Shown: one piece after another, positions 36,330-47,311 of the stretch
Position numbering within the stretch: position 1 is the first letter of the stretch
Layout of the letters: each line of letters starts with the position of its first letter
NCBI GenBank assembly: GCA_018434685.1
Contig: JAHDOV010000013.1
Location: 124,001 to 188,000, forward strand
Direction of reading: 5' to 3'
Source of the DNA: Deltaproteobacteria bacterium
GTDB taxonomy: Bacteria; Desulfobacterota; Desulfomonilia; UBA1062
Length of the DNA stretch: 64,000 bases
Position numbers and translations under genes: made by a program
The notes under the pieces: model-generated
What the model was told of the DNA's origin: nothing
Databases searched by the model: none
Seen by the model: only the letters and a program-made list of their open reading frames with translations

Positions 36330-36485
36330 TCAGTACACGATCACATAGTAGATCACATACAGCCACGAGAGCAGTCCGTGGAATATGGCCCAGAGCACGG
36401 ATTTATTCATGGTGAACGAAATGACCATGGCCAGGGCGGTACCGAAGGTGATTCCGGTCTTTATGGTTTCGAACGCGTATGACAT
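36330..36485 (-). CDS. Small membrane protein, 51 residues
   Basis: A short gene that is easily missed. It has an excellent binding site, AAAAGGAGGGAAG, right before the ATG. The protein starts MSYAFETIKTGITFG, has a hydrophobic segment at about 10-24 and a second one at about 29-50 (LLSWLYVIYYVIVY at the end). The pattern of an N-terminal amphipathic helix, a Asn-Lys turn and a Trp/Tyr-rich second helix recalls small YIYY-type membrane proteins common in Desulfobacterota. Function unknown. It is divergent from the TetR gene at 36791. Confidence 0.75.
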   Translation of the reverse strand: MSYAFETIKTGITFGTALAMVISFTMNKSVLWAIFHGLLSWLYVIYYVIVY

Positions 36486-36790
36486 CTTCCCTCCTTTTCA
36501 TGGCAAAGAACTGCCGTGGTGCCCGGTTATCCTTTTATACTACTCGATTCGGGCCGTACAGGAAAGACCCACTCAAAAAAAACCATTCTTTTTTCCGCCT
36601 CTTTTCCCATGATTCTCACACCTGTCCTCATAGAGAACCTGCTATTCCGGATTCTGACTTCTGGCTCCTGGTTTTGTATGGTCTCGAGCCTGCCTTTATG
36701 CCGACCCCTTCCCGTACATCACTTTCATGTTGTACTTATAGTAATATATTTGACTTTTTGATTCAATCGTTCTACTATTCAGCTCACGTC
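36486..36790. other. Divergent regulatory region between small membrane gene and tetR
   Basis: 305 bases containing the promoter at 36750-36778 for the TetR gene. A TATAAA on the minus strand about 50 bases before the small membrane gene could be its -10, without a clear -35. Confidence 0.45.
36750..36778 (+). promoter_or_regulatory. Strong sigma70-type promoter for a near-leaderless tetR mRNA
   Basis: TTGACT (36750-36755), 17-base spacer, TACTAT (36773-36778). Transcription would start near 36785, only about six bases before the ATG at 36791, and no Shine-Dalgarno precedes that ATG. Confidence 0.65.
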
Positions 36791-37390
36791 ATGACCAGGG
36801 ATAAGAAACAGACCGAGATCTTTGCTGCCGCCCTGAAACTGTTCGCCCTCTACGGGTTCAAGAAGACCACGGTGGAGGACGTTGCGGCTCAAGTCGGCAT
36901 GACCAAGAGCAATATCTATTTCTACGTGAAAAACAAACGCGATCTCTATGAGAAGACCGTGAGCACGGCCCTGGAACAATGGCGCAACTCGGTTGCCGAG
37001 GCAGTTGCCACCTCAGACGATGTGGTGGAGAAATTCACGATCATGGCACAGCGGTCTTTCGATTATCTCGCAGACCACGAAGACCTCCGCTGTATCCTGA
37101 TAAAAGACCCGGGCATCTTCACCCTGACACCGAGGGAAGACCGTTTTTACGATATCAACCTCGGCGCCATGAACCTGATCAGGGACATCCTGAATCAGGG
37201 GATCGAACAAGGCCGTTTCTACCCCGTAGAGGTGGCCTCTACCGCTGAACTGCTTTTTTCCATCTACATCATGTTTCTCATCAAGACCTATGTGAAGTCG
37301 GAAGGGGTTTCCTCTGTCCGCATGTACGATGAGGGGCTGAAGATCATTTTGAGGGGATTATGCAGGGACTATTCAAAGTCCCCCGCATAA
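36791..37390 (+). CDS. TetR/AcrR-family transcriptional regulator
   Basis: 199 residues. The N-terminal HTH (about 10-52) reads IFAAALKLFALYGFKKTTVEDVAAQVGMTKSNIYFYVKNK in two halves, a typical TetR DNA-binding region. The C-terminal ligand/dimer domain is all-helical. The gene lies 43 bases before the membrane protein at 37434 on the same strand, and probably controls it. The ATG has no Shine-Dalgarno and is close to the inferred transcription start, so initiation may be leaderless. Ligand unknown. Confidence 0.9.
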   Translation: MTRDKKQTEIFAAALKLFALYGFKKTTVEDVAAQVGMTKSNIYFYVKNKRDLYEKTVSTALEQWRNSVAEAVATSDDVVEKFTIMAQRSFDYLADHEDLRCILIKDPGIFTLTPREDRFYDINLGAMNLIRDILNQGIEQGRFYPVEVASTAELLFSIYIMFLIKTYVKSEGVSSVRMYDEGLKIILRGLCRDYSKSPA

Positions 37391-42107: not shown

Positions 42108-42323
42108 TTAGGATTTCTCACCGAGGATCTCCGATCTGGCAGGATTTACCGGCACGACACGGTAGCCGTGCCCCTTCAGGTAGCGCGCCACCATGTTGCT
42201 GTCCCTCTCCGGCTTGTCCGACAGGCCCACCACGGCGATGGTCTTGCTGTTCTTGAGTATCTCCCTGATCTCTCCGGACGCAGGGTTGTTATCAGGAAAT
42301 TCGCACAGGGTTTGATCCGACAT
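42108..42323 (-). pseudogene. Truncated CoA-binding (YccU-like) protein
   Basis: 71 residues: [23 protein letters not shown] and [19 protein letters not shown] form the first half of the CoA-binding Rossmann domain of YccU-type proteins, which are normally about 135-145 residues. A stop then cuts it off before the second half, and no continuation of the domain is recognisable in the other frames downstream. GAGGAGGAGGTGCACC precedes the ATG, so it is still well set for translation. It is either a broken gene or a deliberately short nucleotide-binding protein. Confidence 0.65.
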
Positions 42324-42507
42324 GGTGCACCTCCTCCTCAGAACTATACCATTTCATGAAGCATCTGACCACAAGGCAATGCACGGATGCGACAAGGGAA
42401 TCGGGAGCAAACCGGTTTGCCGTTCCATCTCCTTTTTCCCCTTGCTAAAAGAAAAATCCTGCCATAAACGCTCATTACAGGTGAGCTATGCTGTACAGGA
42501 GGGTTGT

Positions 42508-43275
42508 ATGAAGAGGTATCCGGTTCTCGTTGGTGCAGTGCTGGTCTGTCTCATATGCTGCCCGCACTGTGTGTATGCCGATCAGTACCTGAAGTACAGG
42601 ACGCATACGGACAGTGTCCGGATAATGGGGCAGATCGAGCCTGCCAGGGACACTGTACAGGAGATCTGGATCGCCAGCGACAGGATGCGCAGCGACAGTC
42701 AGGAACATTCCATGATCGTGCGCCTCGATAAAAAGGTCATGTATATTCTGAACCACACAGAGAAGATCTACACTTCGGTGCCCCTGGACGGTGGCGAGGA
42801 AGCCGGCGACATATTCGGAGATGAAGAGGACATGACCCCTGAAGAACGGCAAACCATGAGGGAGATGGCCCAGGCCATGATCAAGGTGAATATCATTGTT
42901 GTGGAAACCGGAGAAAAGAAAAGGATAAACAACTGGAACTGCCGGGAATATATCATGAAGACTGAAACCATGATGGGCCCTTTCACGTCCGAGATCTGGG
43001 CCAGCCAGGATATAGAGATGAATTACGACCTCTTTGCCAGATTCAATGCAGCCCATAATTTCGCGCTGAACCCGGCATTGCAGGGCTCCCTGTCCCAGGC
43101 CATGGAAGAGATGACAAAGATCAAGGGCGTCACGGTCTTCAGTGCCTCCACCGCGAACATGATAGGTGCCCGGATCACATCAACCCAGGAACTCCTGGAA
43201 TTTTCAGACGGCACGGCCCCTGAGGGGAGTTTTGCAATCCCCAGGGGGTATGCAAAAGAGACCTTCGGGGAATAA
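42508..43275 (+). CDS. Secreted DUF4412-type protein
   Basis: 255 residues with a signal peptide (MKRYPVLVGAVLVCLICC..., cleavage near VYADQ). CAGGAGGGTTGT sets this start; the frame is open upstream without support. The mature part is beta-rich, with RMRSDSQEHSMIVRLDKKVMYILNHTEKIYTSVP resembling lipoprotein-carrier-like folds (DUF4412), then KRINNWNCREYIMKTE and ASQDIEMNYDLF. It may bind a lipid or other hydrophobic ligand in the periplasm. It converges with the 572-residue unknown gene, across a long hairpin. Confidence 0.75.
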   Translation: MKRYPVLVGAVLVCLICCPHCVYADQYLKYRTHTDSVRIMGQIEPARDTVQEIWIASDRMRSDSQEHSMIVRLDKKVMYILNHTEKIYTSVPLDGGEEAGDIFGDEEDMTPEERQTMREMAQAMIKVNIIVVETGEKKRINNWNCREYIMKTETMMGPFTSEIWASQDIEMNYDLFARFNAAHNFALNPALQGSLSQAMEEMTKIKGVTVFSASTANMIGARITSTQELLEFSDGTAPEGSFAIPRGYAKETFGE

Positions 43276-43341: not shown

Positions 43342-43379
43342 GAGGGCGCCGTGCCGGGATTGCCCGGCATGGCGCCCTC
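43342..43379. terminator. Long hairpin between convergent genes
   Basis: A stem of 9 bp plus 7 bp with one mismatch between them (43342-43358 with 43363-43379), 4-base loop. It lies between the stops of the DUF4412 gene (plus) and the 572-residue gene (minus). No clear T run on either side. Confidence 0.55.
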
Positions 43380-43412: not shown

Positions 43413-45131
43413 TTATTTCTGTGAAACCATCCTGACGGTAATGGGGTGTTCTTCGGGCAGGTAGTCCGGCAGCTTTCTCTCCTGTATGACCACGTCATTG
43501 TCCTTTATGGGCAGGACATTGAGCACGTCCGCAAAAGAGATCCAGTGCGGCAGGTCGAGTCTCTTGCCCTCGGGATGATTCCAGGTGCGGTACCAGAAGA
43601 GATCGTTGACCGATTTGCGGTGATCCATGGCCTGCTTTTCCGCGATCATGGCGTCCTGCTCGCGCTTGGCACAGATGGCGATGATCGCCTCCATCTTGTC
43701 GCCGGGCTGTATTGAGGGAGCCAGGATGTCGCCGAAGCCCTTGCCCCATCCCCGGGCAAGCTCCTCATCCGTATCGAGTAGCTCTGCCGAATGCATGGGC
43801 CCGGTCAGGCAGAAGGCACCGTAGCGGAGGTCATCCCCCTCGGGGATATCGGTTGTGCCGTCGAGGTGAATGGAGTTGAGCCCTGCCTGGATCGCCTCTC
43901 CCACCGCCTGTTCTGCCACATCGATGGCTATCTCGCGCAGCTTCATCTCCTGCATGTCGATGGCTGCAAACACCATCTTGTGTCCGTCCTCCCGGGGCTT
44001 GAGCACCTTGTTGCCGAGTTCGGCAATCATGTCTGCGGTCTGCTTGTAGGTCTCAAAGTCGGTGAAGTCGTACCTGGAATCATGGAGATTCTTTTCATAG
44101 GCACTCAGAACATCGGCATGGGCCTTTTCCATACCCATCTTCACCCGGTTCCTGATGCGTGCCAGGAGCAGGTGTCCCTCCCAGCGGTTCCCGTCGATGA
44201 CCACGAGCTTGACGATCTCCCGCAGGCCGAATTTCTTGAGTGTGCCGTTGAAGGTGCTGACAAAACGGAACATCACCTCATCGGGCACTTCGAGGCTGAA
44301 CTCGGCGTTGCGGCGTTCGCTCTTGCGCTCGATCAGCTTTGCCCCGGCCATTTCCATCATTGCCGGGTCGAAGAGTTCCTGATCCTCGGGCCTCTTGAAG
44401 CCAAGCTGGACGATGGTGACTATCTTCCCTTCCTCTTCCATACCCGGCAGGGTCACGAGCTTTTTCAGCATATCATAGGCCTCCTTGTTGGGCCCCTCGA
44501 CAAGCTGTTTCGCCAGCGAACGCCTGATGACATTCACGCCGATGTGCCCGCCGAGCACTGCGCCCACTGCACTCTTGAGGTTATGTTCGAAGGTCCCCAT
44601 GTCGATGTGCTCCAGGCTGTAGATGCTTGGCGGAATGGGCCGGCGTCTGAGGGACATGAGGTCCATGAAGACCCCTCGGTAGCCGGTGTTGATGAGAACC
44701 ACGGTAGCAAAGGCGTTTTCCGAGAAGGACTCTCCCTCACTGAGCACCTTGAGCTTGGATATGGCCTTCTTGCACTCGCTGTTGTAGCTCCAGTCGAAAT
44801 ACATGCCCTGCCAGTGCTGCGAGTATGTGGCGCAGGCAGCCTTGATTCCACAGGCCAGGATCTGGCCCAGTTTGTACTTGTTCGGCACCTCGGTGATCTC
44901 GAACGGTGCGAAGTTCTTCCCGGAATATTCGCTGGAACGCCAGATATACCGGATATAGCTGTTCTCCTCCTTGGTAACGGACACAGGGTTGAGCAGGTAG
45001 GGTATCTCGTTCTTGCCCGGATGAGCTGCGGCAATCCACTGTGACCGGTGCACCTCTGAGGAGCCCTCGGGTGCCACCTTTCGTCCATTTGACTTTCCCA
45101 AAACTGCCGGGGTGTTGTTGTTCTCATTCAT
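43413..45131 (-). CDS. 572-residue protein of unknown function, in operon with a TetR regulator
   Basis: I do not recognise the family. It has no signal peptide and at most one short hydrophobic run (SAVGAVLGGHIGV, about 199-211). Acidic/basic-rich helical stretches follow, then NFAPFEITEVPNKYKLGQ near 75-92, KFGLREIVKLVVIDGNRWEG near 305-324, and a C-terminal region ending in KLPDYLPEEHPITVRM. The last third contains tryptophan clusters (LFWYRTWNHPEG). GGAGGT stands 10 bases before the ATG. The gene follows the TetR regulator by 89 bases on the same strand and is probably its main target. Confidence 0.65.
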   Translation of the reverse strand: MNENNNTPAVLGKSNGRKVAPEGSSEVHRSQWIAAAHPGKNEIPYLLNPVSVTKEENSYIRYIWRSSEYSGKNFAPFEITEVPNKYKLGQILACGIKAACATYSQHWQGMYFDWSYNSECKKAISKLKVLSEGESFSENAFATVVLINTGYRGVFMDLMSLRRRPIPPSIYSLEHIDMGTFEHNLKSAVGAVLGGHIGVNVIRRSLAKQLVEGPNKEAYDMLKKLVTLPGMEEEGKIVTIVQLGFKRPEDQELFDPAMMEMAGAKLIERKSERRNAEFSLEVPDEVMFRFVSTFNGTLKKFGLREIVKLVVIDGNRWEGHLLLARIRNRVKMGMEKAHADVLSAYEKNLHDSRYDFTDFETYKQTADMIAELGNKVLKPREDGHKMVFAAIDMQEMKLREIAIDVAEQAVGEAIQAGLNSIHLDGTTDIPEGDDLRYGAFCLTGPMHSAELLDTDEELARGWGKGFGDILAPSIQPGDKMEAIIAICAKREQDAMIAEKQAMDHRKSVNDLFWYRTWNHPEGKRLDLPHWISFADVLNVLPIKDNDVVIQERKLPDYLPEEHPITVRMVSQK

Positions 45132-45220
45132 GATGTCGTAACCTCCAATCTTTTTCTTTATTGATAGCGTACTACACAGTGATACCTGTCAGATCGTGTC
45201 GATCGCCGTCGATGGCAGGA

Positions 45221-46234
45221 TCAAGATTTGTTCTCTTCCGGGGGTACAAAGAAGCGTTTGCCGCTCGTCTTTTCGCCCACAAAGCCATTGAAGAGCACCT
45301 CAAGGATAACGGGCAGTTCATCACGCAGCGGATACTCCCTGCCGGAGCGGAGCCACTTGTGAAAAACCCCGTCGACAAAGCCAAGGATCCCGTAAAATGT
45401 CGTGTAAAAACTGGTGGTCTTGAGTCTGCCCTTTTCATTGAGGGCGACCACCCGCTCCTTGAGCATGGGGAGTTGGGATATGATGGTGTTGTAGAACATA
45501 TTACGCTTGCCCGAATGAGGCACGATGTCTTCCTTCTGGATCAGGCGGTAGAGCAGGTAGTTGTCTTCGATGTAGCCAAGCCACGTGGAGATGGTCTTTT
45601 CCACAAGAACGAGGATGTCCTTGTCGCTGGACAGGACCGTATTGAAAATGGAGACAATCTCGGCGGTCTTTTCTTTCAGCAGCTGGTCGAGAAGATCTTC
45701 CTTGGTCTTGAAATTGCGGTAGACCGTTCCCTTGCCGACCTTGCTCAGGGCTGCAATCTCGTCGACCGTGGTGGCGTGGAAGCCCTTTTCCACGAACAGC
45801 TGCAGGGCTGCATCGAATATCTTCGAACGGTTGTCCCTCGGGTCGACCTTCTGTTTCGGGGCTGCGGGTTTTGGAACCGTATAGGACAGTAACAGCCGCA
45901 GCTGGTCTGCCGGCATGGTGACCGAGGTGACACCCAGGAGCGAGGCCTCATCGATCGCAGAGCGGAAGAGCAGCAGGGCCTCGTCATCCAGTCCCTTTTC
46001 CCTGAGATATCCGATTACCCTCTCCAGGTACGAAGAAAGCCATAGACCGCTTTGTCTGCCGAATTCCCCGACATCCCGGTATTTGAAGCCCATCTGCCGG
46101 ATGGTATCCTGAATATGCTGCCGGAAGGCCTCTTCGTCCAGACGGCCGTCGGCCGAGAAGAACTTGCCCACTTCTGCGTAGAGCTGAATCCGGCGACCTC
46201 CGGATCGGATCTGCAACAGGGTATCATCTGTCAT
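45221..46234 (-). CDS. TetR-family regulator with a 130-residue N-terminal extra domain
   Basis: 337 residues, against about 200 for a usual TetR. The HTH lies in the middle, residues about 138-182: IFDAALQLFVEKGFHATTVDEIAALSKVGKGTVYRNF split over two motifs. The N-terminal 130 residues form a helical domain of their own (QHIQDTIRQMGFKYRDVGEFG), and the normal ligand-binding domain follows the HTH. A perfect 14-bp palindrome in its promoter (46282-46295) suggests autoregulation. The next gene is the 572-residue unknown protein. Confidence 0.85.
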   Translation of the reverse strand: MTDDTLLQIRSGGRRIQLYAEVGKFFSADGRLDEEAFRQHIQDTIRQMGFKYRDVGEFGRQSGLWLSSYLERVIGYLREKGLDDEALLLFRSAIDEASLLGVTSVTMPADQLRLLLSYTVPKPAAPKQKVDPRDNRSKIFDAALQLFVEKGFHATTVDEIAALSKVGKGTVYRNFKTKEDLLDQLLKEKTAEIVSIFNTVLSSDKDILVLVEKTISTWLGYIEDNYLLYRLIQKEDIVPHSGKRNMFYNTIISQLPMLKERVVALNEKGRLKTTSFYTTFYGILGFVDGVFHKWLRSGREYPLRDELPVILEVLFNGFVGEKTSGKRFFVPPEENKS

Positions 46235-46281
46235 ATCATAACCTCTCTCTCACATGCCCAGCGTAACCGAACTCTAATGGT

Positions 46282-46324
46282 ACGGACTAGTCCGTCCTCT
46301 AAAATATATTACCCTCCCTGTCAA
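46282..46324 (-). promoter_or_regulatory. TetR promoter with palindromic operator
   Basis: Minus strand: TTGACA (46324-46319), 17-base spacer, weak -10 TAGAGG (46301-46296). The perfect palindrome ACGGACTAGTCCGT (46295-46282) begins directly after the -10, covering the likely transcription start, which is where a TetR repressor would block initiation. Confidence 0.65.
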
Positions 46325-46471: not shown

Positions 46472-47311
46472 CTACGGCAGGTAGCTGCGGGTGTCATTAA
46501 GGCATTCATCCCCGAACATGACCAGGGAGTCGGTGACGAGCATCTGCTGAACGAACAGCCTCAGGTCTGCAGCCCCCTCGTTCAGCCAGTACATGACACA
46601 ATCTTCATTGGTGCAATGACGCGGGTGGTCTGCATCCAGGTGATCCGATACCATGGGGATCCCGTTGTCCACAAGCCCCATGACATGCCCGAACTCATGG
46701 ACGAGGGTCGCCTGCTCCACAAAGGCGAGCACGGTCGATGAAGAACCGGAGGCACGGATGACATCCTTGAAGACGGCAATAACCGGTGTACCCACGATGG
46801 AGACCCCGATCACCTGGCTATTTCCTTCACCCTCCTCATCGAGGTACCCCTCGAGGAACAGAACGAAGAACTCTACAGTCGTGGTCAGTTGCAGCGGCTC
46901 CCAGACGCCTGAGGCCAGGTCCATGATCTCCGAAGCGGTCCAGGTCTCCTCTGACTGAACCGGGATCTGCTCCATCTCGGCAAGGCTCATGGGTACCGAT
47001 ACATCCGGCTCTACCAGGCGTCCCTGGAAAAGACCCCGGATATTGTCCTCGAGAACGGTCCAGCTCGGCGTCCCGTTCAGGATCGTACCGGTAAAGGGCT
47101 CAGCACCGGGCTCGTAGGCCACCTGGACCAGGATCAGGCCTGCCGTGGAGTACAATGCAGGGATATCAAGAGCAAAGCCACCCTGCCCTGTCCCGGAATC
47201 CTCCCCGCTCTCCCCGGAACAGGTGACCAGGGCCAGGAACACGGCCGGCAGCAGGAATACGAGCATCCCCCTCAGGCAGGTGGTTCCCTTCCGGCTCCAG
47301 GCATCCATCAT
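46472..47311 (-). CDS. Metzincin-like zinc metalloprotease lipoprotein
   Basis: 279 residues. The signal sequence ends LALVTC, so lipidation at Cys31 is likely. The zinc site is HEFGHVMGLVDNG (HExxHxxGLxxxG-like, about residue 206), with a nearby HxxxxHPRHC-NEDCVMYW segment that supplies a Met-turn (CVMYW). This resembles small predicted metzincins of bacteria, with the third ligand possibly among the downstream His or Asp residues. It would act outside the inner membrane; the substrate is unknown. GGAG lies 8 bases before the ATG pair. Confidence 0.75.
   Translation of the reverse strand: MMDAWSRKGTTCLRGMLVFLLPAVFLALVTCSGESGEDSGTGQGGFALDIPALYSTAGLILVQVAYEPGAEPFTGTILNGTPSWTVLEDNIRGLFQGRLVEPDVSVPMSLAEMEQIPVQSEETWTASEIMDLASGVWEPLQLTTTVEFFVLFLEGYLDEEGEGNSQVIGVSIVGTPVIAVFKDVIRASGSSSTVLAFVEQATLVHEFGHVMGLVDNGIPMVSDHLDADHPRHCTNEDCVMYWLNEGAADLRLFVQQMLVTDSLVMFGDECLNDTRSYLP

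Follow-up and report, generated by a model that had tools for sequence, protein, structure and literature searches.

Introduction

In ordinary nitroreductase dimers, FMN is held between the two subunits by residues drawn from both. Acg (Rv2032) and MsAcg are tandem pseudo-dimers with a single site and a lid. Among regulators of the TetR fold, FadR is an acyl-CoA-responsive repressor. Mycobacterial Acg is a monomeric protein with bound FMN and a lid, and a function in FMN storage has been proposed for it (PMC11841060). Within the nitroreductase superfamily, the FDO subgroup counts lipid-modifying enzymes such as TyzC among its members, and enzymes of this subgroup desaturate lipid-like substrates (PMC10404671).

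This study concerns a two-gene operon in a 64-kb stretch of DNA, hereafter called the window, in which a TetR-family regulator is paired with a 572-aa protein. Acg and MsAcg, which belong to the FDO subgroup, share with the 572-aa protein a nitroreductase fold, which for the latter is predicted, and Acg is by analogy the nearest precedent for its architecture. However, the 572-aa protein shows no sequence similarity to Acg/MsAcg in any general search, is distinguished by its length, a long C-terminal extension and a putative TetR repressor of its own, and is found in Deltaproteobacteria-labelled genomes and in genomes of the spirochaete phylum. SagB-type tandem nitroreductases of a sister family (L121-L127; 480-532 aa) likewise have two nitroreductase domains per chain, as predicted for the 572-aa protein; each half of these proteins is recognised by the nitroreductase sequence profile (prob 98.8), whereas the 572-aa protein is not.

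Results

The regulator gene (337 aa; 45221-46234, minus strand), identified by Pfam PF00440 and by aligned orthologues, lies upstream of the gene for the 572-aa protein (43413-45131, minus strand), from which it is separated by an 89-bp gap. Both open reading frames are present where a sequence-only reading of the window had placed a TetR regulator followed by a 572-residue protein. Downstream, a strong G+C-rich hairpin (43342-43379) with an MFE of -40.2 kcal/mol and a z of -4.15 in an 88-nt fold stands between the 572-aa gene and a convergent gene for a DUF4412 protein (42322-43275, plus strand), and is likely a terminator. The window also encodes a 279-aa putative lipoprotein (46472-47311, minus strand) that contains the zincin motif HEFGHVMG and gave only sub-threshold matches in Pfam.

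Of 60 near genomes, 10 (the source genome included) encode a relative of the 572-aa protein, all in the same family and at 56-67% identity; in a sample of 297 genomes from the phylum there were 4, again confined to the source's family. The GTDB collection yielded 13 loci, mostly in the same genomes, one of them in a record labelled Spirochaetes; the phylum of that record was sampled with 296 genomes, three of which had a relative. Sixteen distinct loci with the 572-aa protein were studied. The TetR gene lies directly upstream and in the same direction in 11 of the 16 (the window, L018-L025, L128 and L129), including two pairs from a second phylum (L128 and L129), while the 572-aa gene stands without it in the remaining five (L014-L017 and L033). 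Three genomes (G012, G015 and G019) have two copies of the 572-aa gene each, one paired and about 56% identical to that of the window, the other unpaired and about 66% identical. Over the 11 pairs, the distance matrices of the TetR and 572-aa proteins correlate with r = 0.97, a value reached in 0 of 5000 permutations. This congruence indicates that the two genes were inherited or moved together. Literature searches found no paper on the TetR/572-aa pair.

The promoter of the operon has a -35 element TTGACA (46319-46324, minus strand), read directly and kept in the promoters of the pairs, and a -10 position TAGAGG (46296-46301, minus strand) that follows after a spacer of 17 nt. TAGAGG is weak by consensus and was assigned from the conserved layout TTGACA-N17-TAnnnn-operator; a generic promoter scan reported no promoter here. 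Directly abutting it is the 14-bp palindrome ACGGACTAGTCCGT (46282-46295), a putative operator over the expected start site. The perfect palindrome that the earlier reading had seen over the likely start is thus exact. Palindromes of this length are not rare in 64 kb (8 were observed in the window against about 4 in shuffled sequences), and so the argument must be carried by conservation.

The other pairs have the same promoter layout: TTGACA, 17 nt, a hexamer that mostly starts with TA, and then the operator. The identical 14-mer precedes the TetR gene in L018, L019 and L020, at 51-57% identity of the TetR proteins, and in L019 it forms the centre of a 28-bp perfect palindrome. At the equivalent position, the promoters of L129 and L128 contain the palindromes ACGCACTAGTACGT and ACGGACCAGTACGT, respectively, and the more distant clade of L021-L025 has GACTGACCGGTCAGTC or close forms. 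A palindrome therefore occurs at this position in all 11 pairs. The recognition helix of the regulator changes together with the operator between clades: GKGTVYRNF or close forms accompany the first operator type, and AKGTVYTYF accompanies the GACTGACCGGTCAGTC-like type. The core ACGNACTAGTNCGT has a single occurrence in each of five genomes, always at the promoter of the TetR/572-aa operon. When up to 3 mismatches were allowed, a longer, 18-mer form of the operator had one occurrence in the source genome, compared with 17 for a control pattern. Because the core is found once per genome, the regulator seems to serve this operon alone. The unpaired 572-aa genes of L015-L017 are preceded, at a distance of about 48 nt, by a palindrome of another sequence, TGTCTTG-N5-CAAGACA, and L020 has a similar element before the gene.

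The sequence-only reading had described a self-contained regulated system with the 572-residue protein as its main output, to be checked by conservation of the gene pair and of the palindrome upstream of orthologues. The pair, its gene order and its operator have been kept together in two phyla, in agreement with that description. Genes further away show no general conservation, and the 572-aa protein is the only apparent output. The comparison of loci supports a dedicated two-gene system of this kind.

The regulator belongs to the TetR family by its HTH DNA-binding domain (residues 139-184; 45683-45820, minus strand), which matched Pfam TetR_N (PF00440) with an E-value of 3.6e-17 and 62.3 bits against a cut-off of 24. 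A palindromic operator near its own promoter, the other family trait considered, is present as judged by sequence. The HTH is preceded by about 138 residues, counted from the start of the Pfam match, close to the 130 or so noted before. Most of these form an N-terminal extension (approximately residues 1-128; 45851-46234, minus strand) that gave no Pfam match and no meaningful match to PDB sequences, and that is conserved in the orthologues of the pair and in L072/L073. The extra domain had been considered unusual; it is real and conserved, but it belongs to a wider clade of regulators, other members of which adjoin lipid-synthase or acyl-CoA genes. It is possibly a second sensor or a dimerisation domain. 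Another TetR open reading frame of the window (36479-37390, plus strand) also has about 105 residues before its HTH; this probably reflects a misassigned start codon, as translation from an internal ATG near residue 105 would give an ordinary TetR protein.

The C-terminal ligand and dimer domain of the regulator (residues 190-337; 45224-45667, minus strand) appears weakly closest to acyl-CoA-binding FadR of Bacillus (NF053878; PDB 5gp9 and 3whb). The best match of its profile in the PDB was the FadR entry 5gp9 (E-value 4.1e-4), and the NCBIfam FadR model was the best match for the C-terminal domains of three homologues (E-values 0.005-0.05). The C-terminal segment of the window regulator alone had no FadR match in NCBIfam, and the regulator scored 64.6 bits with NF053878, below the curated cut-off of 200 bits for FadR. 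FadR, in contrast to the window regulator, lacks an N-terminal extension, and the genes that it controls are those of fatty-acid degradation.

Searches of Pfam, NCBIfam, PHROGs, PADLOC, PDB sequences and plasmids returned no match for the 572-aa protein. None of 13 members of its family matched Pfam, and thus none is placed in PF00881 by sequence; HMM and profile-profile tests of relatedness to nitroreductases gave background scores, and a comparison of the two halves of the protein found no significant internal repeat. Homology to the SagB-like tandem nitroreductases of the sister family was also considered, and profile comparison (prob 0.1) led to its rejection. The view that the protein belongs to no known family holds at the level of sequence but not at the level of fold, where a tandem nitroreductase architecture is predicted.

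Models were built from 13-16 similar sequences. The AlphaFold model of the whole protein had a pLDDT of 46 and a weak Foldseek list. With VIA, for which the best Z of models without a clear match is typically 7-8, all 50 rows for this model were of nitroreductase fold, covering approximately residues 50-276 at Z 6.5-8.3; domain 1 was assigned on this low-confidence model to about residues 52-255 (44367-44978, minus strand). On this basis the sequence was read as containing a second domain that starts at residue 256, and a tandem architecture was put down as a hypothesis before domain 2 (about residues 256-500; 43632-44366, minus strand) was folded. When folded alone, domain 2 had a pLDDT of 61 and a pTM of 0.63, and its order of helices and strands was that of a nitroreductase. 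Its top Foldseek rows were all nitroreductases (best E-value 4.7e-3, prob 1.00), with no match at E <= 0.001, and all 50 top VIA rows were of nitroreductase fold at Z 10.0-12.2 over 134-184 residues. The computation shows that the predicted model of domain 2 has the nitroreductase fold of the PF00881 superfamily; the same assignment for the model of domain 1 is supported but weaker. Because sequence profiles stay at background, relatedness to nitroreductases rests on predicted folds of modest confidence. The conserved C-terminal extension (residues 501-572; 43416-43631, minus strand), which contains RKSVNDxFWYRTWNHPEGKR and has 25 invariant positions, was modelled with low confidence and is a possible lid.

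Nitroreductases of the PF00881 superfamily bind FMN at a dimer-like interface with an RRSxR-type motif. In the 572-aa protein, two motifs, both invariant in 16 of 16 sequences, are candidates for the halves of a flavin site. In domain 1, ATYSQHW (residues 101-107; 44811-44831, minus strand) may correspond to PSxxNxQPW of nitroreductases, and of the matching stretch in domain 2 only N295 is retained. In domain 2, RKSER (residues 269-273; 44313-44327, minus strand) is part of the invariant RKSERRN (269-275), whose counterpart in domain 1 lacks conservation, and sits just before the structurally aligned start of the domain. With RKSxR supplied by domain 2 and SQHW by domain 1, a fused pseudo-dimer with one site fits. 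The distribution of motifs thus points to a fusion of two nitroreductase-fold domains that share one composite flavin site, the single composite site being supported but weaker than the fold of domain 2, and the 572-aa protein may bind FMN.

Gene context that points to lipids was found in relatives, whereas the window itself is without it. In the sister family f2, homologous regulators with an extension before the HTH stand directly before a giant nitronate monooxygenase-ketosynthase-acyltransferase gene, as read in L075 and L079. Like the window regulator, these TetR relatives have homologous HTH and C-terminal domains, the pre-HTH extension and a palindrome-like operator after a TTGACA promoter; however, their extension is barely alignable to that of the window regulator (10-18% identity), and their downstream gene encodes a megasynthase rather than a 572-aa protein. 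Regulator and megasynthase occupy positions 6779-14685 of L079 and are found also in L075 and other f2 loci. The TetR stop overlaps the start of the megasynthase (>2300 aa) in L079 and L075, and several f2 loci have an ABC exporter set and a histidine kinase-like gene ahead of the TetR relative. In two further genomes, a homologous regulator lies beside a GMC oxidoreductase gene, near an acyl-CoA dehydrogenase gene in one (G018) and a 2-hydroxyacyl-CoA dehydratase gene in the other (G009). Thiolase and OB-fold or KAS III-like genes are found near the pairs of L022 and L023-L025.

Discussion

It is reasonably probable, in our judgement, that the locus is an autoregulated TetR operon whose 572-aa product is a divergent tandem nitroreductase-fold redox protein acting in a lipid- or acyl-linked process. 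A TetR dimer would bind the palindrome just after the -10 position, over the start site, and would block transcription of its own gene and of the downstream 572-aa gene until released by a ligand. This ligand would most likely be a fatty acyl-CoA or a related lipid thioester, because the C-terminal domain resembles that of Bacillus FadR, a likeness that is itself supported but weaker than the conservation of the operon. The extra N-terminal domain might affect dimerisation or respond to another signal. The 572-aa protein would form an intramolecular pseudo-dimer with one composite FMN site, to which domain 2 would contribute RKSxR and domain 1 ATYSQHW, and would carry out a redox reaction whose substrate is lipid- or acyl-linked. 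FMN binding, ligand, substrate, the role of the N-terminal domain and repression rather than activation are the parts of this scheme that we infer. Against this reading stand the background scores of the sequence profiles, the modest confidence of the models, the loci and genomes with an unpaired 572-aa gene, the weakness of the FadR likeness and a lipid context that lies in relatives. Considering the FadR likeness, the gene context of the relatives and the lipid chemistry of the FDO subgroup, a lipid- or acyl-linked redox step is the likeliest role, and the 572-aa protein is probably a redox flavoprotein of this kind.

The fold prediction could itself mislead: the 572-aa protein would then have a fold that is new or unrelated to nitroreductases, and its match to them would be an artefact of low-confidence models. 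The pLDDT values of 46 and 61 and the background scores of the HMM and profile-profile tests would agree with an artefact, but two separate models match the same superfamily only, both halves have a fitting order of helices and strands, and the Z-scores of domain 2 (10.0-12.2 over 134-184 residues) lie above the 7-8 that the tool typically gives at best to models without a clear match; we hold an artefact to be quite improbable. If the fold is accepted, redox catalysis may nevertheless have been lost, leaving a flavin store or ligand-binding protein. The tandem architecture, the apparently single site and the possible lid formed by the long C-terminal extension recall Acg, for which a restrictive lid and a role in storing FMN have been proposed (PMC11841060). 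However, the presumed flavin-site motifs are invariant in 16 of 16 sequences from two phyla, which fits catalysis at least as well, and loss of catalysis seems unlikely.

The regulatory side allows other readings as well. As in many TetR-controlled reductases, the regulator might sense a foreign or reactive compound that the 572-aa protein reduces, and a TetR protein with a single dedicated target operon and a scattered distribution would suit such a detoxification module. Yet no transporter or stress gene recurs beside the pair, and the context of the relatives points to acyl-CoA and lipid genes, so that detoxification is a doubtful explanation. It is very improbable that TetR activates or acts elsewhere and that the palindrome belongs to another factor. 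The operator was assigned from sequence, which leaves room for another factor, but its place after the -10 position and over the start site is that of a repressor site, its sequence changes with the TetR clade, and no second site was found in five genomes.

Returning to the favoured reading of a lipid- or acyl-linked redox operon, a bolder and more tentative proposal is that the 572-aa protein founds a sequence-isolated branch of nitroreductases. Its members would be asymmetric fused pseudo-dimers with one composite flavin site, would carry out acyl-CoA or lipid redox reactions, presumably in anaerobic lineages, and would be controlled by a TetR repressor whose second sensor domain is of a new kind.

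In sum, this study gives a predicted fold and a testable candidate active site to a protein family that is not recognised by sequence libraries, and marks an undescribed N-terminal domain in a TetR clade found beside lipid-synthesis and acyl-CoA genes. Because the operator occurs once per genome, the ligand of the regulator would report the substrate class of the enzyme.
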